A DNA stretch of 50,301 nucleotides from Nitrososphaeria archaeon (GCA_029775875.1 JARVKD010000004.1:1-50301), one strand, 5' to 3'; shown: positions 38,605 through 50,301, numbered from the stretch's first letter. The notes: generated from the sequence alone by a model not told the origin. A program made the numbers and translations.

Positions 38605-40353
38605 TTATTCAGTTGCTACAATCTTGTTGAAAATCTTGGAGTAGTGATCTAAGGCTGCTTTCATGTAGTTCTTATCGATCAATCCACGAAAGCTTGGAAC
38701 TTCAAAGATTCTTTCAGGAATTCTAAGTTCACTAGGTCTGAAGCCTTCCGAAGCCTTCAAGGCTTGCTTTTCCCTGTAGATGCATCTCCCTAGCTCTTTT
38801 AACCTTTCTTCATCAAATTCATATCCTAGAACATCAAGAGCCTTTTTGACTATGCTAGGTTCATAGATTCCTCTGGCGAAGTAGCATATTACAAGGCTTG
38901 AGAGGATTTGCCTCCATTGCTCTTCTTCTATTAACTTATCCACCATCTCTTCAGGCGATAAACCCTTCATCTTCTGATCTATAGAGTAGCCAGCTGCATC
39001 AAGATGGCTATGGCGAGAACCTATTAGATAGCCAATATGACTTGCAGGACCTGTATGATAGCCGGGCATCTCATTTCCACCAAAGGATAGAGCGAAATCT
39101 CTACCACCATAAATTTTAGATGAGTGATCAACGCCCATGGCTAAGGCTTTATAGAATTCGTTGGGCTGGTCTACTATCAACTTGACAGCCTCTCTATAAG
39201 CATCTGCCTTTCCCCAGTCTAAATCTACTACTAAATCATTTAATTTGATCAAGCCTTTTTTGTAAGCTTCTGTAGCCCAAGCCAATGCCACGCCAGTGCT
39301 TATAGCATCTAATCCTCCTATTTCCACTTCATCCATCAGCTTTAAGAGACCGTTTATATCAGAGATGCCGAGCATACTTCCTAGAGAGTATAGAAGTTCA
39401 TAATCATAAGATACAAAAGTAGTCTTGTAAAAGTAAGGCTCATCGGGATAGGGTTCTCTTATAGTTGCTAGGTGTATACAAGCCACTGGACAATGGCTAC
39501 AGGCTACTCTTCTACCAAGCTTTTTGGCAGCTAAATCTTCGCCACTAATATTCTCAGCCCCTTCAAATCTAGCTTCTAAGAGGTTTCTCGTTGGCAAGGC
39601 TCCCAAAGCATTAATGGGTAATATATTCATGGGTGTACCCAATTCGTGGTACTTTTTCATGGAGCCGGACTTTACTGCAAGATCATATATCTCATCATAA
39701 ACATCTCTATAAGCCTTAATCTTGGGCATACGCATACTTGATTTACCATGAATTACCAAAGCCTTAAGCTTCTTAGAGCCAAAGACTGCTCCCAATCCCA
39801 TTCTGCCAAAATGTCTGTAAGTCTCCGATACAACGCAAGCATACCTAACTAATTTCTCACCAGCCCTGCCAATTCTCATTATCGTCCTTACACCAGTTCC
39901 AGGTGAAGCTTCTCTAAGAACTCTACCAGCAGTGAAAGTGCTTCTCATCCCCCATAGGGTGGCTGCATCTTTAAACTGAACTCCTTTTTCACTTATTACC
40001 AAGTATATGGGTCTATCGCTAACTCCTTTGATCAATATAGCACCATAGCCGGCAGACCTAATGGCTGTAGCACTTCTTCCACCAGCATGACTCTCGCCAT
40101 AATTCCCTGTCAAAGGACTTTTGAAGACAGCCACAACCTTTGATGCTAAAGGGTAAAGGGCTGTTAGTGGTCCTACAGCAAATACGATGACATTTCCAGA
40201 ACTAAGAGGGGCAGAACCTTTGACTGCCTCTTCCTTATAGAGCTGAAGAGCTACTCCAACTCCTCCAAGCCACTCATTAAAGAGATCGGATCTATTCTTT
40301 ACGTAGAAGCTCTTTCTCTCAAGATCTACGTATAGAACATTGTTTTGATTCAT
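38605..40353 (-). CDS. Aldehyde:ferredoxin oxidoreductase family protein
   Basis: 582 residues of the tungsten/molybdopterin AOR family. The N-terminus reads NNVLYVDLERKSFYV, and KSPLTGNYGESHAGGRSATAIRSAGYGAILIKG binds the pterin. The [4Fe-4S] motif CSHCPVAC lies near residue 290, with its fourth Cys probably in SLVICYFARG; SHLDAAGYSID is the second pterin loop. It oxidises an aldehyde to the acid and reduces ferredoxin, here probably the one encoded just upstream with a four-base overlap. The substrate cannot be told from sequence. Confidence 0.92.
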   Translation of the reverse strand: MNQNNVLYVDLERKSFYVKNRSDLFNEWLGGVGVALQLYKEEAVKGSAPLSSGNVIVFAVGPLTALYPLASKVVAVFKSPLTGNYGESHAGGRSATAIRSAGYGAILIKGVSDRPIYLVISEKGVQFKDAATLWGMRSTFTAGRVLREASPGTGVRTIMRIGRAGEKLVRYACVVSETYRHFGRMGLGAVFGSKKLKALVIHGKSSMRMPKIKAYRDVYDEIYDLAVKSGSMKKYHELGTPMNILPINALGALPTRNLLEARFEGAENISGEDLAAKKLGRRVACSHCPVACIHLATIREPYPDEPYFYKTTFVSYDYELLYSLGSMLGISDINGLLKLMDEVEIGGLDAISTGVALAWATEAYKKGLIKLNDLVVDLDWGKADAYREAVKLIVDQPNEFYKALAMGVDHSSKIYGGRDFALSFGGNEMPGYHTGPASHIGYLIGSRHSHLDAAGYSIDQKMKGLSPEEMVDKLIEEEQWRQILSSLVICYFARGIYEPSIVKKALDVLGYEFDEERLKELGRCIYREKQALKASEGFRPSELRIPERIFEVPSFRGLIDKNYMKAALDHYSKIFNKIVATE

Positions 40354-40757
40354 CGGCTAATCATCCCCTCAACACCTAAAACTCTAAAGTTGCAATAGCC
40401 AACACAGTAACCGCAGTGCACACAAATTACAGGCTTGTTCATGCTGTCGTCCCAGAATACAGCCCCAATGTCACAAGCCCTTTCACAGAATCTACATCCT
40501 ATACATTTTGATAAATCTAGTATAACTCCTCCTCCATCTCTTGCTCTTAAAGCATCAACAGGACAGGCTCTAAGGCATGGAGGGTCTATGCATGCTCTAC
40601 AGACAACGACTGTGAATCCCCTCTCAAATCCTCCTACGCTCTTAACATGAAGGGCTGATTTGTCTAGACCTGCGAAGCCAAGCCTTCTTGAGCATGCAAA
40701 CATGCAGAGCTGACAACCAACACAGCGCTCCGCATCCATTATGACAAGTCTCTTCAA
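40350..40757 (-). CDS. Four-cluster ferredoxin-like protein partner of the AOR
   Basis: 135 residues with 16 cysteines in four groups: CVGCQLCMFAC, CRACIDPPCLRAC, CIGCRFCERAC and CVHCGYCVGYC. This predicts four [4Fe-4S] clusters in the HycB/NrfC-like arrangement. It likely passes electrons from the aldehyde oxidoreductase to other carriers. TTG start at 40757 with GGAGG 14 bases upstream; ATG 40739 is an alternative. TATA-like TTAATATATAG lies further upstream. Confidence 0.9.
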   Translation of the reverse strand: MKRLVIMDAERCVGCQLCMFACSRRLGFAGLDKSALHVKSVGGFERGFTVVVCRACIDPPCLRACPVDALRARDGGGVILDLSKCIGCRFCERACDIGAVFWDDSMNKPVICVHCGYCVGYCNFRVLGVEGMISR

Positions 40758-40891: not shown

Positions 40892-41479
40892 CTAAGAATC
40901 GGCAAGGTCAAAACCGATGAGCATTATCCCCAGTTTTGAATCCCATCCCATAATATGTCTTAAGTATATGTCTGTAGGAGCGCATGGTGAAGCAGAGATC
41001 ACACTGCAAATCTCATCGAGGCATTCAAGCTCTGGAAAGGAGAGAGGTGGAAATAGAATTATAAAGTCCGTCAATGGCGAACCCTTAAGCCTGTCTCTAT
41101 GTATGACAAATGTTTCGCCCATGAGCAGAGCATCCTTTTTTCCTTTCAATTCTTTCAATGTGTTAGCATCCCAGACCTCTTCACCAACATCAACTCCTCC
41201 TAGCCTCCATTTCACAAAAGGTTCAGGTGGGTGACGAAAATCGTTATTATGCGCTAGAACCAGAACTTCCTGTCTATCAAGAACTTCTCTGATTCCTTCA
41301 TTGTAAAAGCGCCGAGATTGCATCGATGTTTCCTCTTCAAAAGTCTTCTCTAGTTCAAGAATTTTGGCTCTATGATCGAGTGATAGCCGCTTGATATCCA
41401 AAGTGCCTTTTATACTCTTTAGAATTGCCTCCACTTTTTCGAGGGTCTTATCTTTTTCCACTTTAACCTTAATATCCAC
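40892..41479 (-). CDS. Unrecognised protein, paralogue A of the corrinoid island
   Basis: 195 residues, GTG start. I do not recognise a family. It aligns along its length with the protein at 43971-44567: NEGIREVLDR, AHNNDFRHPPE, VGEEVWDANTLKELKGKKDALLMGETFVIHRD, FPPLSFPELECLDEICSVISASPCAPTD. The first 70 residues look helical and the remainder alpha/beta, with a conserved His-Asn pair and a C-terminal GFDL. No signal peptide or membrane helix. It is next to the CobW-type GTPase with a 71-base gap. A role in cofactor or corrinoid protein maturation is only inferred from context. Confidence 0.6.
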   Translation of the reverse strand: MDIKVKVEKDKTLEKVEAILKSIKGTLDIKRLSLDHRAKILELEKTFEEETSMQSRRFYNEGIREVLDRQEVLVLAHNNDFRHPPEPFVKWRLGGVDVGEEVWDANTLKELKGKKDALLMGETFVIHRDRLKGSPLTDFIILFPPLSFPELECLDEICSVISASPCAPTDIYLRHIMGWDSKLGIMLIGFDLADS

Positions 41480-41550
41480 AATCTAGTATATCAATTTTCT
41501 TTTCGACTTAAGACAATTCCAAATATTTCATAAGCAAGGTTAGCAAGCTC

Positions 41551-42600
41551 TCAAAAGTGTGAACCATGCTCATTCTCTTCTAAGCTAAAATCAAGGCGAT
41601 ACTGTGACAAAATCTTCTCTACTTTGCCTTCTAAAATATTCTCCAATACTTTATCCTTTAAATCTTTGACGACAGCGTATATCGTCATTTCACCTTCTCT
41701 CGCAGAGCCTTTGAAATTTCCAGAAAAATCCACTCCATGCTTAACATCCAAAAGACTAGCCTTAAAAGAGCCTGATGAAGTCTTTACATAAGCCTTTACA
41801 TGCCCTATCAATCCACTCCCAGAATTTAAAGAAGCATTGGCAATTTCATTGAATATTTCGCTAATAACCACCTTAAGTTTTGCTTCGCTTACATCTTCCT
41901 TCGCTTTAAACGACAACTTAAGGGCGGCTCTTCCCATGCCAGAAAGCATTACTGAATCTCCATCATCGCTTAGGGATGAAACCTTCATGTTACTTTGCAG
42001 AATTATATCTATCAGTTCGTTCATTCCATCTCCTCTTTTCGCTGACATACTAAATATGTAAGCACTTGGATTAAGCTCTCTCACGGCTGACTTTAGCAAG
42101 TCTATATCCCATCTCGATTCTATAAGGTCGACTTTGTTTATGGCAATAACATCGGCTTCTTTGATCTGCTTGATGAGGAAGTGCTCCATTTCTTTGAACA
42201 TATTTCTAAATCTTGCACCATCCACCAAAGCTATCACTGGCGCTTGTTCCATTGGCAAATCTATCAAACCATCTACGATTTCCTTAATTTTTGAAGGAAA
42301 GGCGATACCCGTTGGTTCAATCAAAACGATGTCAGGTCCATAATTTTCATAAAGAATTTTTAATGTCGATTGTAAATCTCCTTTAAGTGAGCAACAGATG
42401 CATCCTTGGACAATCTCTTTAACTTCAAACCCAAAGTCACGAATAAAAGAACCGTCTATACCTACTTCTCCTACTTCGTTAACGATAATGCCTACCTTCT
42501 TCCCATGCTTTGTGGATAGTTCCTTTCCTAATTGAATCAGTGTAGTAGTCTTCCCACTACCAAGAAAACCAGCAATTTGGGCAATTCTAGTCAATCTCAA
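41551..42600 (-). CDS. CobW/HypB/UreG-type (G3E) GTPase
   Basis: 349 residues. Walker A GFLGSGKTTTLIQLG at about residues 12-26, the G3E switch VNEVGEVGIDG, the metal-binding GCICC near residue 68, LIEPTGIAFPSKIKE, and NKVDLIE (guanine specificity). The C-terminal domain of about 130 residues differs from classical CobW. Family members deliver metals to enzymes or help insert cofactors. In this island a job in corrinoid or zinc handling for the methyltransferases is plausible. TTG start at 42600; a TATA-like TTTATAAAAT lies about 45 bases upstream. Confidence 0.88.
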   Translation of the reverse strand: MRLTRIAQIAGFLGSGKTTTLIQLGKELSTKHGKKVGIIVNEVGEVGIDGSFIRDFGFEVKEIVQGCICCSLKGDLQSTLKILYENYGPDIVLIEPTGIAFPSKIKEIVDGLIDLPMEQAPVIALVDGARFRNMFKEMEHFLIKQIKEADVIAINKVDLIESRWDIDLLKSAVRELNPSAYIFSMSAKRGDGMNELIDIILQSNMKVSSLSDDGDSVMLSGMGRAALKLSFKAKEDVSEAKLKVVISEIFNEIANASLNSGSGLIGHVKAYVKTSSGSFKASLLDVKHGVDFSGNFKGSAREGEMTIYAVVKDLKDKVLENILEGKVEKILSQYRLDFSLEENEHGSHF

Positions 42601-42730
42601 GTCACGCGGATTATTTCAATTCCCTTGAGTGCCATATTTTATAAACTTATTTACAATCATTCTACACACACTTACAATATTCATGAATATTTTTGGCGAC
42701 TTGTGTAAAATCCTCTTACTTGCCAATTTA

Positions 42731-42747
42731 GGTTATGTTTTATAACC
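42731..42747. promoter_or_regulatory. Inverted repeat upstream of the G3E GTPase gene
   Basis: GGTTAT, five bases (GTTTT), ATAACC: perfect six-base arms. A second dyad, ATAGCA-TATTC-TGCTAT, follows at 42765-42781. Both lie in the 240-base AT-rich gap between the six-helix membrane protein gene and the GTPase gene, upstream of the GTPase TATA element. They may be operators or, for the second, an RNA hairpin. Confidence 0.3.
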
Positions 42748-42840
42748 ACATTTTTAAAGTTTCTATAGCATATTCTGCTATTGTAAATAATAAAAAAGTG
42801 TGGGGTTTACCGGAACTTTTTGATCACAAGGATTCTTCTT

Positions 42841-43347
42841 TTATGGGACTAACCATCCGAACTGCCATGTAATAGCTAGGATGAAGTTTATTACAGAGCA
42901 TATGGCTATGAGTCCTCCTCCAGCCTTTGCGCCCATACCAAATGCAGGAAGACTTCCTCCTAAGCATGCTATGCCATATAGAAACACAACCAGACCTAGA
43001 GACAGAAGAGCCATATTTGCGAAGAATGTGCCCATTATGTAGAGTCCATAAATCAATAGGAATATTCCAGCGAAAAGAACTACAAGACTCAATGTCTTTG
43101 CCTGAACTGTCCAAAAACCAGCTATGCCTACTAATGTGAAGGTCATGCCAGCTATGCCTAGTATGGTAGCTCCTAAGTAATCTCCCGTATTATATAGTAT
43201 GAGGGCGATGAGTATGGTGACTATTCCAGGGAGAATTCCTGCTTTGAAGGCTGTTCCAGCATCACCTTTGCCTAGTAGTGCGTATGCAATTGGGAAGAAA
43301 CCGAACGCGTAAGCTATTACGGCCCAAGAGTATATTTCTAGAGCCAT
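42841..43347 (-). CDS. Six-helix membrane protein, AmiS/UreI- or YaaH-like channel
   Basis: 168 residues with six predicted membrane helices (for example YSWAVIAYAFGFFPIAYALL, TLSLVVLFAGIFLLIYGLYIM, GGGLIAICSVINFILAITWQF) and almost no charged residues. The segment GDYLGATILGIAGMTFTLVGIAGFW recalls the GPR1/FUN34/YaaH acetate channels, and the length and topology also suit AmiS/UreI amide or urea channels. A small neutral molecule or weak acid could be the substrate, possibly linked to the methyl compound used by this island. A TATA-like TTAAATAG about 20-28 bases upstream suggests a leaderless message. Confidence 0.7.
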   Translation of the reverse strand: MALEIYSWAVIAYAFGFFPIAYALLGKGDAGTAFKAGILPGIVTILIALILYNTGDYLGATILGIAGMTFTLVGIAGFWTVQAKTLSLVVLFAGIFLLIYGLYIMGTFFANMALLSLGLVVFLYGIACLGGSLPAFGMGAKAGGGLIAICSVINFILAITWQFGWLVP

Positions 43348-43583
43348 AAGCGTTCTTCGCTCTCAAAACTATTTAACGATTATGGGTAATTTTTCCTAAG
43401 TGCTTATCAATATTGATGATTTCGCCTTTTTATTTACAAAAATATTGAAATAAAGCCTTAAAAAGATTTTAAGACGGTATTTGTCAAAGTCAGAAAAATA
43501 TTACATTACATTTAAAAATAGGTAAAATGAGTTTGCTTAGTATCCCCAGATTAGATAACTCTTAAATAAAAATAATGCGAAAT

Positions 43584-43595
43584 ATAACATGTTAT
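43584..43595. promoter_or_regulatory. Palindrome at the start of the thioredoxin gene
   Basis: ATAACATGTTAT is a perfect 12-base palindrome that overlaps the first two bases of the ATG at 43594. The TATA-like TTAAATAAAAAT is about 26 bases upstream, so transcription would begin inside the palindrome. The half-site ATGTTAT recurs upstream of ramA. Confidence 0.35.
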
Positions 43596-43950
43596 GAGCG
43601 AAGAGTCAGAAACAGAATACAAGCATTTAATCCTCACGCCAAGGAACTTTGATGAGATAATAAACTCAGAAAAGCCTGTAATCGTAGACTTTTGGTCTAG
43701 TTCATGCTTTTCATGCAGGTTCATGCTACCAGTCTTTGAGAAGTTGGCAAACAAATATGGTGAAAAGATGATCTTTGGTAGGTTGAATGTGTTGGAGAGT
43801 GTTGGGAATAGAGATATAGCAGCACGTTACGAAATTTTCTCAATACCTTCTTATTTGGTCTTTGTAAAGGGAAAGCCGATGGACAGAATAACAAGCTCAG
43901 CGAGAGAGGAAGATCTCGAAGAACTTATCAACAAATACATAAATGCCTAA
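43594..43950 (+). CDS. Thioredoxin-like protein with CFSC active site
   Basis: 118 residues. The thioredoxin fold is clear: PVIVDFWSSSCFSCRFMLPVFEKLANKYG with the redox pair Cys38 and Cys41, and the cis-proline in FSIPSYLVF near residue 86. The active site CFSC replaces the common CGPC, and the preceding WA[EP]WC is WSSSC. A different redox potential or partner is likely. Surrounded by corrinoid-activation genes, it could reduce a thiol or cofactor for that pathway. Its message is probably leaderless. Confidence 0.88.
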   Translation: MSEESETEYKHLILTPRNFDEIINSEKPVIVDFWSSSCFSCRFMLPVFEKLANKYGEKMIFGRLNVLESVGNRDIAARYEIFSIPSYLVFVKGKPMDRITSSAREEDLEELINKYINA

Positions 43951-43970
43951 GATAATATCTTCATGAAGAA

Positions 43971-44567
43971 TTATTTATAACAAATATTAAAGCCTATGAG
44001 TTCTGTGCCTAAATCTCTTCGATCAACTTCTATCCCAAGCTTTTTCATCTTCTCTTTGATAAGCGTATCAACAGGTGGGGAAGGAATGGCTGCTACAACG
44101 CCATAGATTTCATCAATATCCTTGAGTTCAGGGACTGATAACGTAGGGAATAAGAAATAAGATATTCGTGATAAGACTTCAGATACTTTATCCTTGTAGA
44201 TTACAAATGTATCGCCAATGAGAACAACGTCTTTCCTTCCTTTGAAATCTCTTAATTCATCTTCAGTCCTGATCTCCTCTCCTATAACTTCTCCCATGGA
44301 GATAATCTGGATCTTCTCAGGAGGCCAACAATACTCGTTGGTATGAAGGATAGCAAGGATGACTTCTCTCTTAAGGACTTCTCTCATGCCTGCATTGAAG
44401 CCTCTACCCATTCCTCCAAGGACGCATTTTTCTGCCTCCATCTCACGTTCTAAGAGGACTTTACACTCTTCCTTCTCTAACTCACAAACCGCACGGATGC
44501 CCTTTACGTTCTTAAGGATTGAAGTAACTTTTTCTATCACAGCTTTTCTGCAAGCAAGACTGCTCAC
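43971..44567 (-). CDS. Unrecognised protein, paralogue B of the corrinoid island
   Basis: 198 residues, GTG start. Paralogue of the protein at 40892-41479: NAGMREVLKREV, LHTNEYCWPPE, IGEEIRTEDELRDFKGRKDVVLIGDTFVIYKDK, FPTLSVPELKDIDEIYGVVAAIPSPPVDT, and the end ELIGFNI. It has seven cysteines, more than its sibling, five of them in the first half (near residues 6, 28, 35, 48 and 80). It diverges from the ramA-type gene, so both share a 162-base promoter gap. Family and function unknown. Confidence 0.6.
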   Translation of the reverse strand: MSSLACRKAVIEKVTSILKNVKGIRAVCELEKEECKVLLEREMEAEKCVLGGMGRGFNAGMREVLKREVILAILHTNEYCWPPEKIQIISMGEVIGEEIRTEDELRDFKGRKDVVLIGDTFVIYKDKVSEVLSRISYFLFPTLSVPELKDIDEIYGVVAAIPSPPVDTLIKEKMKKLGIEVDRRDLGTELIGFNICYK

Positions 44568-44729: not shown

Positions 44730-46373
44730 ATGAGTGAAGAAAGGTATGGCATTGCTCTAGACATCGGGACAAGTGGCCTAAGGGCACAGGCAATAGATTT
44801 GAACTCTGGTAAGCTCATTTCAACAGCTATAACCTTGAGGCATCCGTTGCCTGGAGCAAACATTATGGATCATTTACACTTTGCGGTAGAAACAAGCATA
44901 GAGACAGCGCATGCTGTGGTTATTGATGCAGTGAATAGAATAATCAGAGCGTTAGACATCAACCTTAACAGAGTAGAGCGACTAGCAGCCAGCGGAAATC
45001 CTACTCAATTGTCCATCTTTCAAGGTATAGAGATAAGAGACCTTGCGTATTGGGGAAAGCATGCACTTGAGAGGTATGGTGTCAAGCCACCAACTAGGGA
45101 TGCAACCATAGTTGAAGCAGGAAAACTGGGAATCTTAGTAAGGGATGGAGCTGAGGTATACATTCCACCTTCCGTTAAGCATGAGATAGGGGCTGATGCA
45201 TTAGCCATGTTGTATGAAGCAAAGATATTTGAGAAGGGAGAAAATGCTTTCATTACAGACTTTGGGACCAATGCAGAGATGGCTCTATGCTATAATGGTG
45301 AGATATATACAGGCTCCGCAGCTGCAGGTCCTGCCATAGAAGGGCAAAGAATAGAGAAAGGTATGTTGGCTGCTCCTGGTGCCATCAGTGATGTAAGTGC
45401 TTCTACCCTTGGATGGAAGAATTATGTCTTGAACGGGGAGCTAATAGCAAGTGAAGGGGATGTAGTATCGCCATCATCGGGCAAAGTTCTGGAACAAGGT
45501 GAGATGCATGGTAGAGCTTTGGGAGTGACTGGAACGGGTGTAATAGCTGTTACGAGTATAGGAATAGATCTAGGTCTTATAACTCTACCAAGGATCAATG
45601 CAGCAGAGAAAAAGATTCATCTTCAGGATGGGATTTATGTTACTGAGAAGGATGTAAAGGAAGCTGGAAAAGCACTGGGCGCCTTTAGAGCAGGGTACTT
45701 TACTCTAGCTGAAGAGGCCGGAATAATGCAAGACGATGTGAATGTGGCATACATGGCAGGGGCATCAGGCTTTTATGTTGATGCTCTTAAGTCTTTGAAC
45801 GTTGGTCAGATACCAAGATGCTGTGATACCATCTACCAAGTAGGCAATACCTCTCTTGCACTAGCAAGGGATATAGTTCGCAAGCCTGAATTGATGGATT
45901 TCTTGCAAGACATGGCCAAGCAGATAAGGGGCAAGCATATACTATTTCCAGAGTCTCAAGTATTCATGCAAGTTTACCCCCTTGAGCTTGCATATTGGGA
46001 AGAAGGAATGCCTTTATGGGAGTATGAACAGTGGTTAAAAAGATACAATTATCAAGGTTTTCCAATAAAAGCCAGAAACCCAAAGGTCTACAAGATCTTT
46101 AAAAGAGACATTCCTGATCTAGGCGAGAAAGGTCTGAAAATAATAAGAGATATAGGAGTGATGCTAGCCGGTGAATTTCCTGGATGCACTGCTTGTAGGT
46201 CATGTGAAACAGAATGCCCTGAGGGGGCCATAACAGTGGAGGAGAGAGATGGAACAGGTAAGATATTAATTAGATCAGACCTTTGCCTTGGGGTTGCATG
46301 TTTGAGATGTGAAAGAGTATGTCCCGAGAAAGTATTCAAATTCAAAGAACTCTTGCATGAGAAGTTTGGATAA
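44730..46373 (+). CDS. ramA: RamA-type reductive activase of corrinoid proteins
   Basis: 547 residues, like RamA of Methanosarcina. The ASKHA/DUF4445 domain opens YGIALDIGTSGLRAQAIDL and RHPLPGANIMDHLHFA, then FITDFGTNAEMALCYNGEIYTGSAAAGPAIEG with ATPase residues. The C-terminus holds two [4Fe-4S] motifs: C486-x2-C-x2-C-x3-C496 and C519-x4-C-x2-C-x3-C531. The second has four residues in its first spacing instead of two. It uses ATP to reduce inactive Co(II) corrinoid proteins to Co(I). The truncated corrinoid protein at the window edge is a likely client. Confidence 0.93.
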   Translation: MSEERYGIALDIGTSGLRAQAIDLNSGKLISTAITLRHPLPGANIMDHLHFAVETSIETAHAVVIDAVNRIIRALDINLNRVERLAASGNPTQLSIFQGIEIRDLAYWGKHALERYGVKPPTRDATIVEAGKLGILVRDGAEVYIPPSVKHEIGADALAMLYEAKIFEKGENAFITDFGTNAEMALCYNGEIYTGSAAAGPAIEGQRIEKGMLAAPGAISDVSASTLGWKNYVLNGELIASEGDVVSPSSGKVLEQGEMHGRALGVTGTGVIAVTSIGIDLGLITLPRINAAEKKIHLQDGIYVTEKDVKEAGKALGAFRAGYFTLAEEAGIMQDDVNVAYMAGASGFYVDALKSLNVGQIPRCCDTIYQVGNTSLALARDIVRKPELMDFLQDMAKQIRGKHILFPESQVFMQVYPLELAYWEEGMPLWEYEQWLKRYNYQGFPIKARNPKVYKIFKRDIPDLGEKGLKIIRDIGVMLAGEFPGCTACRSCETECPEGAITVEERDGTGKILIRSDLCLGVACLRCERVCPEKVFKFKELLHEKFG

Positions 46374-46410: not shown

Positions 46411-47478
46411 ATGAAGCCCATTAAAGAGATATTAGAAGAAATTTCAAGTCCTATCTCTCCCTTAGAGAGAATCAATATGGCTCTGAGACTTGAGAAACCT
46501 GATAGAGTTCCTATCGCTCCTGTTATAACTATCCACACACCACCTGATCTGAGAAAGGCTGAAGAGTATTTCGAGAAGATATTCATAGATTTGGGAGGAT
46601 GTGATGGTTTTTTCTTCTGGCCTTTGACTTTGATGACTGGTAGAAGTTATACACCAGGCAAGCTTGGTGCCCCTGAAGCTGTAACCATCATGAAGGACTC
46701 AACGGGTTACGACGAACTTATGGAAGAGGGGTTTATGAGTTATCTTTCTCGAGTCTATAGAGAGCAAGACCTTGATGAAGATATAGAGAAAGCCTTGACT
46801 TATGCTGCAGAACAAACAAGGGCATTTGCTCAAAAATGGGAGGAAGAGAGAAAGGTGCCTCTTTACGCAGGGGCTTTGGGTATAGTGCCTTTTGGTTTTC
46901 TTGCCTACGCTAGAGGATTTACAGAAATTGTCAAGGATATCATAAGATATCCATGGAAGATCAACCGAACATGTGATACAATCGTAGATGAGATGACAAA
47001 GCTCTTCATAAAGCTCTGTGAAATATCCAATGTGAGAAGGTTATGGCTGAGTTTTATAAATTCGACTCCTGAGACTGTAGGTCCTCCTCATTTTTCTTCA
47101 TTCGTGTGGCCAACAGCAAGAATTATGATCGAGCAGCTAATAGATGCAAAGATAGTGCCTATATTGCAATTCGATGTTGATGCATCGCCAGTATTCAACT
47201 ACCTTAAAGAACTCCCAAAGGGGGAGTGTATTCTTCATCTAGACAGTTCCACGAATATCATCAAGGCAAAAGAGAGTATCGGGAACCATATGTGCATCAT
47301 GGGCAATGTATCATTCTTGAAATTAGCCACTGAAGAAGATGTCAAGGTCTACTGCAAAGATCTAATCAATCGAGTAGGCGAGAAAGGAGGTTTCATCCTA
47401 AGCTCTGATAATCCAATCGTTATAGATGAAGAGCCCATAGAGAAAGTGAAGGCTATCATAGATGTGAAGAAAACATAA
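46411..47478 (+). CDS. UroD/MtaA-superfamily protein without the zinc site
   Basis: 355 residues with the uroporphyrinogen decarboxylase fold: SPLERINMALRLEKPDRVPIAPVI at the start, GALGIVPFGFLAYARG, VPILQFDVDASPVFNYL and EPIEKVKAIID at the end. In MtaA/MtbA the zinc ligands are HxC and a late Cys in APxCG; here the positions read HLD (276-278) and SSDNP (331-335), so both cysteines are gone. It is unlikely to be a normal thiol methyltransferase. It has its own TATA (AAATTTAAATTTATGG) 26 bases before the ATG and follows ramA by 37 bases. Confidence 0.83.
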   Translation: MKPIKEILEEISSPISPLERINMALRLEKPDRVPIAPVITIHTPPDLRKAEEYFEKIFIDLGGCDGFFFWPLTLMTGRSYTPGKLGAPEAVTIMKDSTGYDELMEEGFMSYLSRVYREQDLDEDIEKALTYAAEQTRAFAQKWEEERKVPLYAGALGIVPFGFLAYARGFTEIVKDIIRYPWKINRTCDTIVDEMTKLFIKLCEISNVRRLWLSFINSTPETVGPPHFSSFVWPTARIMIEQLIDAKIVPILQFDVDASPVFNYLKELPKGECILHLDSSTNIIKAKESIGNHMCIMGNVSFLKLATEEDVKVYCKDLINRVGEKGGFILSSDNPIVIDEEPIEKVKAIIDVKKT

Positions 47479-48523: not shown

Positions 48524-48542
48524 TAAAAAAGGTTAGAACCTT
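48524..48542 (-). terminator. Terminator-like hairpin and T-tract after the mtaA-like gene
   Basis: On the minus strand AAGGTT-CT-AACCTT begins within the TAA stop of the mtaA-like gene and is followed directly by a run of seven T residues. Archaeal polymerase stops at T-tracts, so transcription of the corrinoid protein-mtaA unit probably ends here. Confidence 0.5.
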
Positions 48543-49560
48543 AACTTGGTAATTTATAGTATTCTTTGACAGCAGTGACTATTGCCTTTATGTTTTCTAA
48601 AGGAGATCCTGGTGCAAGACCGCATGCTGGAGCCAATAGATCTACCCCTGCATCAAGTGCCCTTTTAGCTTCTTCTTTGACTTTTTCAGGATTGCCCAAG
48701 AAAATCGTTCTGCTAGTAGATACATTACCAACAATTCTAGACTTACCTGCTGCAGCCTGTTTAGCCATTTTTATGTCGACTTTATCTTCTATGCTTATAG
48801 CATGCGCCCCTGTTTCTGCCATATCCCTGACTATCGGTGCTGCCTCACCACAAATATGAAGTATAAAGTATCCTTTGACAGACCTTATAAGATTCCTTAG
48901 AACTGGTTTCACCAACTCTCTAAAGTCTAGTGGGCTAAGCAGGTTAGGCGATGATGTTGGGTCACATGGGTTAAGGACGTCTGCTCCTGCTTCTATTAGT
49001 GCATTCGCATAGATAATGTTCGCCTCGGTAGTTTTATCTAACAACTCTCTCACATCGTTCCTTCTACTTATCAACCATCTCATGAGATTTTCAGTTCCAA
49101 TTAGATGTCCTGCAAGTGTTATAGGCGCCTCAAATCCCACTATTATCGGTAGTGTATCACCATATTTTTCCTTCAGAATCTTAGTAGCTTCTAAAACAAC
49201 TGGTATGCGACCACGCTTAAGGAAGTCATCGGGAATTTCAAGTTGATCAACAGAAGTAATAGGATGCTCCTTCACCATTGGTTGCCTATCGATCTTGCCT
49301 ATATCTACTCCACCACCTAAAGCTTCAACTTGTACAGTCAAATCAAAGGGGACTCTAGCAGTTTCAAGGCCTGTAAGTTTATAGAGCGAGACTCCTAAAG
49401 TAGCCATCAATTGAGGGTCTTTATGAGCTTCTGGCCATCTTGCATTTACAGCTTCCATTCCTTCGACAATCCCAACTTGTGTTACGCATGTTGGTGGCGT
49501 ATAGTCTTTGGGTTCTCCCAACATCGCGCGAATGAATCTTTCTTTAGGATTCAATTTCAA
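48541..49560 (-). CDS. mtbA: MtaA/MtbA-type methylcobamide:thiol methyltransferase
   Basis: 339 residues of the UroD superfamily with the zinc site of corrinoid methyltransferases intact: HICG at 235-238 (His235, Cys237) and APACG with Cys313. NPKERFIRAMLG opens it and GSPLENIKAIVTAVKEYY closes it. In methanogens such enzymes move a methyl group from the corrinoid protein to coenzyme M. The acceptor here cannot be proven. TTG start at 49560 with GGAGAT upstream. It follows the corrinoid protein gene by 94 bases on the same strand. MtaA versus MtbA cannot be decided by eye. Confidence 0.88.
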   Translation of the reverse strand: MKLNPKERFIRAMLGEPKDYTPPTCVTQVGIVEGMEAVNARWPEAHKDPQLMATLGVSLYKLTGLETARVPFDLTVQVEALGGGVDIGKIDRQPMVKEHPITSVDQLEIPDDFLKRGRIPVVLEATKILKEKYGDTLPIIVGFEAPITLAGHLIGTENLMRWLISRRNDVRELLDKTTEANIIYANALIEAGADVLNPCDPTSSPNLLSPLDFRELVKPVLRNLIRSVKGYFILHICGEAAPIVRDMAETGAHAISIEDKVDIKMAKQAAAGKSRIVGNVSTSRTIFLGNPEKVKEEAKRALDAGVDLLAPACGLAPGSPLENIKAIVTAVKEYYKLPS

Positions 49561-49654: not shown

Positions 49655-50301
49655 TTACCAGCCTTTACCTGTAGCGTACTCTCCGACTACTTCGCTGTAT
49701 TTGATCCTAAGATCCTTCCAACCCATGCCCTTGAGGATGGCATCTGCAAGCTTTGGTGCGTGGTGGGCTTTAGCTCCGAAGAATCCAAGATCGAAGGTTT
49801 CTACCCACTCCTTCGATAGAGCTCCTCCACCACAACCAAATGGAATGTCGATGCCTGCATCCTTGAGCTTTGCAGCTATCTTCGGGAAGTTGGACATGGT
49901 TGTAGTCATTAGAGCAGTTCCTGTGAGCCATATTGGCTTCTCTTTCTTAACAGCATTTACTACTGTCTCTATTGGTACATCTCTTCCTAGGTCTGTCACA
50001 TCATAGCCTGCTGCTCTCAGAAACATTACAACTAGGTTCTTTCCAATATCGTGAGGGTCTCCCTCAGCAACATGGCAGACTACTTTGCCCTTCTTTTCCG
50101 TTGTCTTGCCTAACGCTTTCTCACATTCAGCAATACCAGCCATCATGGCATCAGCAGATACCATGACGTTTGGTAGGAAGTATGTACCACTTGCGTATAG
50201 TGCACCTACTGCATCCATGCCTTTAGCCAATCCCTTCTCGATTACGTCTAGTGGCTTTGTCGTTCTTAATGCATCTTTAACCTTTGATAGGACTGTGTCT
50301 G
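49655..50301 (-). CDS. Methyltransferase corrinoid protein (MtbC/MttC type), 5' end missing
   Basis: The frame is open from 50299 to the stop at 49655 (about 215 codons) and the start lies outside the window; TTG 50230 is internal. The N-terminal helical cap reads KPLDVIEKGLAKGMDAVGALYASGTYFLPNVMVSADAMMAGI, and the B12-binding Rossmann domain starts VCHVAEGDPHDIGKNLVVMFLRAAGYDVTDLG with the DxHxxG cobalt-ligand motif. WLTGTALMTTTMSNFPKIAAKLKDAG and PFGCGGGALS follow. It shuttles methyl groups between a substrate methyltransferase and the mtaA-like enzyme. The methyl donor is unknown. Confidence 0.93.
   Translation of the reverse strand, partial: DTVLSKVKDALRTTKPLDVIEKGLAKGMDAVGALYASGTYFLPNVMVSADAMMAGIAECEKALGKTTEKKGKVVCHVAEGDPHDIGKNLVVMFLRAAGYDVTDLGRDVPIETVVNAVKKEKPIWLTGTALMTTTMSNFPKIAAKLKDAGIDIPFGCGGGALSKEWVETFDLGFFGAKAHHAPKLADAILKGMGWKDLRIKYSEVVGEYATGKGW

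Follow-up and report, generated by a model that had tools for sequence, protein, structure and literature searches.

Paralogous small archaeal proteins associated with RamA-type corrinoid activases and with MCR-activation genes

The activases RamA and RACo spend ATP to drive electron transfer to a client protein's Co(II) corrinoid. Research on methanogenesis has long asked how corrinoid proteins and methyl-coenzyme M reductase (MCR) are brought to Co(I) and Ni(I), respectively, both of which are states of very low potential. Apart from RamA, what is already known includes the purified MCR activation complex, with McrC, Mmp7, Mmp17, Mmp3, A2 and a DUF2098 protein as components (PMC12176620), and CobW-type genes as neighbours of methyltransferase and ramM genes, COG0523 subfamily 13 being co-localized with mtaABC and ramM (PMC2770081). 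B12 reactivation in Phaeobacter requires a DUF1638 protein as well as a RamA-like one (PMC5764234). Here, we examine a 50,301 bp stretch of DNA from a Nitrososphaeria archaeon (GCA_029775875.1, JARVKD010000004.1:1-50301), hereafter the window, in which two small open reading frames (ORFs), copies A and B, lie in a locus that includes ramA and a CobW-type gene. The family of A and B, with members of about 165–220 aa, is given the working name FAM. A sequence-only reading of the window had proposed that A and B are paralogues of no known family and could be accessory factors of corrinoid proteins.

Both ORFs are present where that reading placed them, and they are paralogues, with 36% identity over 191 residues (BLASTP, E = 7e-35, 109 bits). 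All of the motifs it had quoted, REVL, PPE, GEE, KG(K/R)KD, G(E/D)TFVI and PEL..(L/I)DEI, are found in both proteins. Copy B is, as described there, directly divergent from ramA, with 162 bp separating the two genes.

FAM has gene neighbourhoods and co-occurrence in common with RamA and RACo (PF14574, TIGR04270 and NF040756 for AcsV), and presumably the same process, but is a separate small protein in which no match to the ASKHA ATPase, no Fe-S motifs and no sequence or fold similarity to the activases were found. In two groups described below FAM is within or beside the gene cluster for the MCR activation complex, but no FAM-like protein is among the subunits reported from Methanococcus maripaludis (PMC12176620), and no NCBIfam Mmp model matches FAM. 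The DUF1638 family (PF07796) is likewise small, uncharacterized and tied to RamA-like B12 reactivation, and adjoins a third FAM copy, but its sequence is unrelated to that of FAM. CobW is co-localized in the window as in COG0523 subfamily 13, but belongs to a described GTPase family and is a neighbour of FAM rather than a relative. A precedent is MtrI of Methanosarcina mazei (PMC12774963), which is an accessory of a corrinoid methyltransferase complex, is encoded away from the operon and was overlooked for a long time. FAM is not MtrI, which is a 68 aa helical Zn-ribbon protein with Cys ligating cobalt, whereas FAM is approximately 190 aa, alpha/beta and without conserved Cys. ATP-driven reductive activation is known as a kind of system, and FAM would be a new part of it. 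In the open-access papers searched we found no report of the family or of its link to both activation systems, which is weak evidence.

The survey of archaeal genomes covered Thermoproteota, Halobacteriota (the phylum of the Archaeoglobus genome) and Thermoplasmatota (the phylum of the Methanomassiliicoccus genome). FAM was found in 39/398 sampled Thermoproteota, 50/295 Halobacteriota and 28/194 Thermoplasmatota genomes, one of the last (G1127) being a weak and probably false match. The broad RACo/RamA domain PF14574 was present in 33/34 FAM-positive versus 17/46 FAM-negative Thermoproteota, and in 39/40 versus 12/40 Halobacteriota. RamA itself (TIGR04270 above cut-off) was found in 32 of 51 FAM-positive genomes and in none of the 29 FAM-negative genomes picked for having PF14574; when the remaining FAM-negative genomes, which lack PF14574, are counted as RamA-negative, the latter figure is 0/86. 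The corresponding figures for Thermoplasmatota were 23/24 and 0/46, and pooled they were 55/75 and 0/132, with the same counting of genomes without PF14574. When RamA was used as the starting point, FAM was present in 43 of the 44 genomes found, mostly in at least two copies. The co-occurrence is near one-to-one in the three phyla. Fisher p values for FAM co-occurrence range from 7e-9 to 1e-33 with no correction for phylogeny, and the like trend in three phyla is a stronger argument than the p values. By the sequence-only reading, homologues found widely in genomes without RamA-type activases would count against its proposal. Homologues do occur in RamA-less genomes (20 of the 75 FAM-positive genomes tested), but where PF14574 was scored nearly all FAM-positive genomes have it. 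As McrA is missing from 17/28 FAM-positive genomes tested, MCR is not the common denominator and is ruled out as the sole partner of FAM; PF14574 activases nearly are.

FAM and ramA are adjacent, 0–178 bp apart, in four lineages (Archaeoglobi, Methanosarcinales, f27 and f1). The Archaeoglobi have RamA followed by FAM after 0–20 bp in the same direction, within an MtaB-MtaA-corrinoid-CobW run (L190, L191, L199; L115), and in Methanosarcinales outside Methanosarcina FAM is 119–178 bp upstream of RamA (L195, L207). In f27, an MCR-bearing lineage that we call Methanomethylicia-like from its gene content, one FAM copy is divergent from RamA (27–106 bp) and accompanied by MtaA-like and CobW genes, which is essentially the layout of the window. 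FAM adjoins MtrH-like and RACo-like genes in Nitrososphaeria of lineage f4, a B12-binding protein in L080, and, in L105 (7780-9632), a TIGR04013 radical SAM protein that binds B12 and is related to TIGR04014, the family of the MCR glutamine C-methyltransferase. A DUF6951 gene (PF22263) is beside FAM in both a Methanosarcinales locus (L195:8697-9017) and a Methanomassiliicoccales locus (L181:8343-8684). In three archaeal phyla the neighbourhoods link FAM with corrinoid activation of the RamA type, in line with the original proposal.

The role proposed there was confined to corrinoids. While the ties to RamA support it, this is too narrow, as FAM is also found in clusters for activation of MCR, the F430 enzyme. 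A McrD-Mmp3-Mmp6-Mmp17-Mmp7-A2 run in f27 closes with an AcsV/RACo-like gene, and the second FAM copy overlaps this gene or is no more than 41 bp away. In Methanomassiliicoccales, one copy is 367–420 bp from mcrA, and another is between A2-McrC and Mmp3-Mmp6-Mmp15-Mmp17-Mmp7, 42–159 bp from mmp3. A published table of methanogen markers in Methanomassiliicoccales lists accessions that skip one gene between McrC and Mmp3 (WP_019176783/85; AGN26006/08; PMC4153887), and the skipped accession would fit an unlisted FAM. Two further observations concern MCR genes. The f27 operons place a corrinoid-type activase, an AcsV/RACo-like ASKHA protein, among MCR-activation genes (L079, L081, L083-L087, L089-L092, L094, L112), and small proteins encoded after mcrA are candidates, by their likeness to it, for the DUF2098 component of that activation complex (L181:7298-7579; L188:10172-10453).

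The libraries searched contain no known relative of FAM. Among 32 members, no match beyond chance was found in Pfam and NCBIfam, including the NCBIfam models for McrC, Mmp3, Mmp6, Mmp7, Mmp15, Mmp17 and A2, and none to the PF14574 ASKHA and Fer domains. No member matched PF07796, which the DUF1638 neighbour does match, and the closest approach to an ACT domain, by copy A only, was below the curated threshold (PF13291, 12.9 bits versus a cut-off of 27, E = 0.18). A search of PDB sequences with the FAM profile returned nothing. AlphaFold2 models, made from alignments of the window proteins and proteins from related loci, are confident for B and A (predicted template modelling scores of 0.84 and 0.85; see Table 1 for pLDDT) and have helices and strands in the same order in an alpha/beta fold. 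With a solved fold defined as Foldseek E <0.001 or template modelling (TM) score >0.5, neither model had a match in the PDB; the best E values were 0.22 and 0.41, and the highest TM score among the matches listed was approximately 0.39. Foldseek returned no viral match for the models. The predicted fold is new in the sense that it is not in the PDB by Foldseek, and we reject assignment of FAM to a known family or fold, none having been found in Pfam, NCBIfam or the PDB; the earlier statement that the pair matches no known family is borne out, and no unrelated family was found to claim it. In an alignment of 85 rows (effective number 53), Glu42 and Asn58 are invariant, Gly60, Gly96 and Gly192 are conserved at 98% and Gly23 at 97%, and there is no column with more than 17% Cys or His. 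The lack of conserved Cys and His tells against FAM having its own metal, disulfide or Fe-S centre, and against its being an electron carrier.

The genome from which the window comes (G000, archaeal, 1.23 Mb) has a third FAM paralogue (G000:C4:8796-9374), with a DUF1638 gene 14 bp downstream. In one locus elsewhere, L024 (2433-3655), the FAM reading frame continues into DUF1638 sequence, which could be a natural fusion but more probably reflects a frameshift in the assembly. In a tree of 84 FAM members, the three G000 copies are on distinct deep branches and are not a recent duplicate pair, although the deep branching order is not settled and several long branches caution against a fine reading. 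Each copy has its own partners: B is next to RamA, A is with CobW and upstream of genes for a polyferredoxin-type protein and an aldehyde:ferredoxin oxidoreductase (AOR)-like protein, and the third is with DUF1638. Genome G001 retains both ORFs in the layout of the window, and G002 retains the block from A through CobW, the membrane protein and thioredoxin to B, with RamA elsewhere, near the third copy. The set of copies differs in most genomes. Given the separate deep branches and different partners, the heteromer of A and B that the sequence-only reading had suggested is not supported. G000 also encodes McrA, McrB and McrG, with mcrB opposite in direction to mcrDGA (G000:C53, L188:5525-9533), and the organism probably makes methane by methyl reduction, like 'Ca. 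Methylarchaeales' (PMC9478090). A second activase in G000, RACo/AcsV-like (L187:1230-4279, G000:C6), is beside a corrinoid protein gene and an MtaA-like gene and has no FAM copy nearby.

We favour, with a probability of roughly 0.6, the interpretation that FAM is a non-redox accessory of the ATP-driven reductive activation of tetrapyrrole cofactors of low potential, mainly of the Co(II) to Co(I) reduction of corrinoids by RamA or RACo and, via paralogues, of MCR with its F430. FAM would bind the activase, the client protein or both, as a docking adaptor or client-recognition factor that carries no electrons. We infer this interaction and its mechanism; such a partner is the simplest reading because FAM lacks a redox centre, its gene is frequently in translational coupling with that of the activase, and it has multiple copies where there are several modules. 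One paralogue may serve each module, B with RamA, A with the CobW-ferredoxin-AOR operon and the third copy with the DUF1638 module, and the requirement for both the DUF1638 and RamA-like proteins in Phaeobacter (PMC5764234) supports the idea of modules. The same function might extend to F430, as the copies in MCR-activation clusters suggest. FAM is thus probably a missing part of the corrinoid and MCR activation machines: a small protein found nearly wherever RamA is, and inside MCR-activation clusters, would be such a component. This role would give a function to a widespread gene that has no Pfam or NCBIfam name, and to a fold absent from the PDB. A stronger version, in which FAM is a new-fold, near-universal dedicated partner of archaeal RamA-type activases and a shared component linking the activation of corrinoid Co(I) and MCR F430 Ni(I), is tentative and we consider it rather less likely than not to hold in full; if true, it would point to a common mechanism of ATP-driven reduction for both cofactors.

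Several points weigh against an activase accessory. Ferguson et al. reportedly found in 2009 that purified Methanosarcina barkeri RamA needs no such partner to activate corrinoid proteins in vitro, so FAM would not be strictly required with an artificial reductant. Many genomes with only RACo have no FAM, the statistics disregard shared ancestry, and a methylotrophic way of life could in itself be the reason why FAM and RamA occur together. Genomic context also differs in some groups. Methanosarcina-size genomes have FAM between S-layer-like and Elp3-like genes, away from ramA (L192-194, L196-198), and in f31 it is with a GSA-aminotransferase-like gene and no RACo is nearby. A short FAM in f50 is between genes for a Gfo/Idh/MocA oxidoreductase and a PhoU-domain protein (L108:6631-9261; L109; L110), which suggests a different role in that clade.

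Two other roles are about equally improbable. FAM could be a sensor of redox or cofactor state, or a co-regulator of methyltransferase genes, that is outside the activation reaction, as might be read from its divergence from ramA in two lineages, the weak ACT-domain likeness of copy A and an ACT-domain-like neighbour in f27 operons (L079:8961-9473). However, no DNA-binding domain was found in FAM, its fold has no match, and the frequent coupling to the activase gene (the overlap in f27 and the 0–20 bp in Archaeoglobi) is what would be seen for a structural partner. Alternatively, FAM might load, deliver or store corrinoid or F430, with CobW as a metal or cofactor chaperone and no activase partnership. 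Copy A lies 71 bp downstream of CobW and in the same direction, the RamA-linked copies of f27 and Archaeoglobi also have CobW nearby, B12-binding proteins adjoin FAM in L080 and L105, and copies are near mcrA in Methanomassiliicoccales. Against this, FAM has no conserved His or Cys for axial ligation, the activase is the tightest phylogenetic partner found, and RamA or RACo is directly adjacent to FAM more often than corrinoid proteins are. Least probable is that FAM merely marks methylotrophic archaea and has an unrelated housekeeping or enzymatic role, linked through clustering of C1 genes, which would suit the unlinked Methanosarcina copies and the f50 and f31 contexts, but specific neighbours recur independently in differing orientations in separate lineages, including genomes without McrA (f4, with MtrH and RACo).

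Table 1. FAM copies and neighbouring genes in the window (pLDDT, predicted local distance difference test; AF2, AlphaFold2)
Feature	Position	Strand	Evidence and remarks
Aldehyde:ferredoxin oxidoreductase-like protein	38605..40353	-	PF02730 and PF01314; overlaps Fe-S gene
Polyferredoxin-type Fe-S protein	40350..40757	-	DsrO/DmsB-like matches; 134 bp 3' of copy A
FAM copy A	40892..41479	-	195 aa, GTG start; AF2 pLDDT 91.3
CobW/COG0523-type G3E GTPase	41551..42600	-	PF02492, E 4.8e-40
Multi-helix membrane protein	42841..43347	-	No Pfam or NCBIfam match; strongly hydrophobic along whole length
Thioredoxin	43594..43950	+	CFSC motif; PF00085, E 2e-18
FAM copy B	43971..44567	-	198 aa, GTG start; AF2 pLDDT 89.9; E42, N58, G60, G96 and G192 all carried
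RamA, corrinoid protein reductive activase	44730..46373	+	547 aa, C-terminal 2x[4Fe-4S]; TIGR04270, 735.9 bits (cut-off 500); PF14574, E 1.4e-53
Divergent MtaA/URO-D-like methyltransferase	46411..47478	+	PF01208, E 2e-18; 3' of ramA
MtaA/MtbA-like methyltransferase (URO-D family)	48541..49560	-	PF01208, E 1.6e-86
Corrinoid protein (MtxC type)	49655..50230	-	PF02310, E 9e-20; PF02607; probably extends at window edge

The genes said to be bracketed by A and B, for a CobW-type GTPase, a membrane protein and a CFSC thioredoxin, are all there (Table 1), while the six helices given for the membrane protein are only plausible. Homologues of this protein are encoded directly 3' of FAM in L076 and L094, and a small membrane protein that matches nothing in Pfam is repeatedly encoded next to, or close to, FAM or RACo in unrelated lineages (window, L076, L094 and L204). 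MtmB-like genes in some of the loci comprise two consecutive ORFs, the pattern that a putative in-frame pyrrolysine codon would give (L025:3757-5178; L175:4385-5761; L180; L183).

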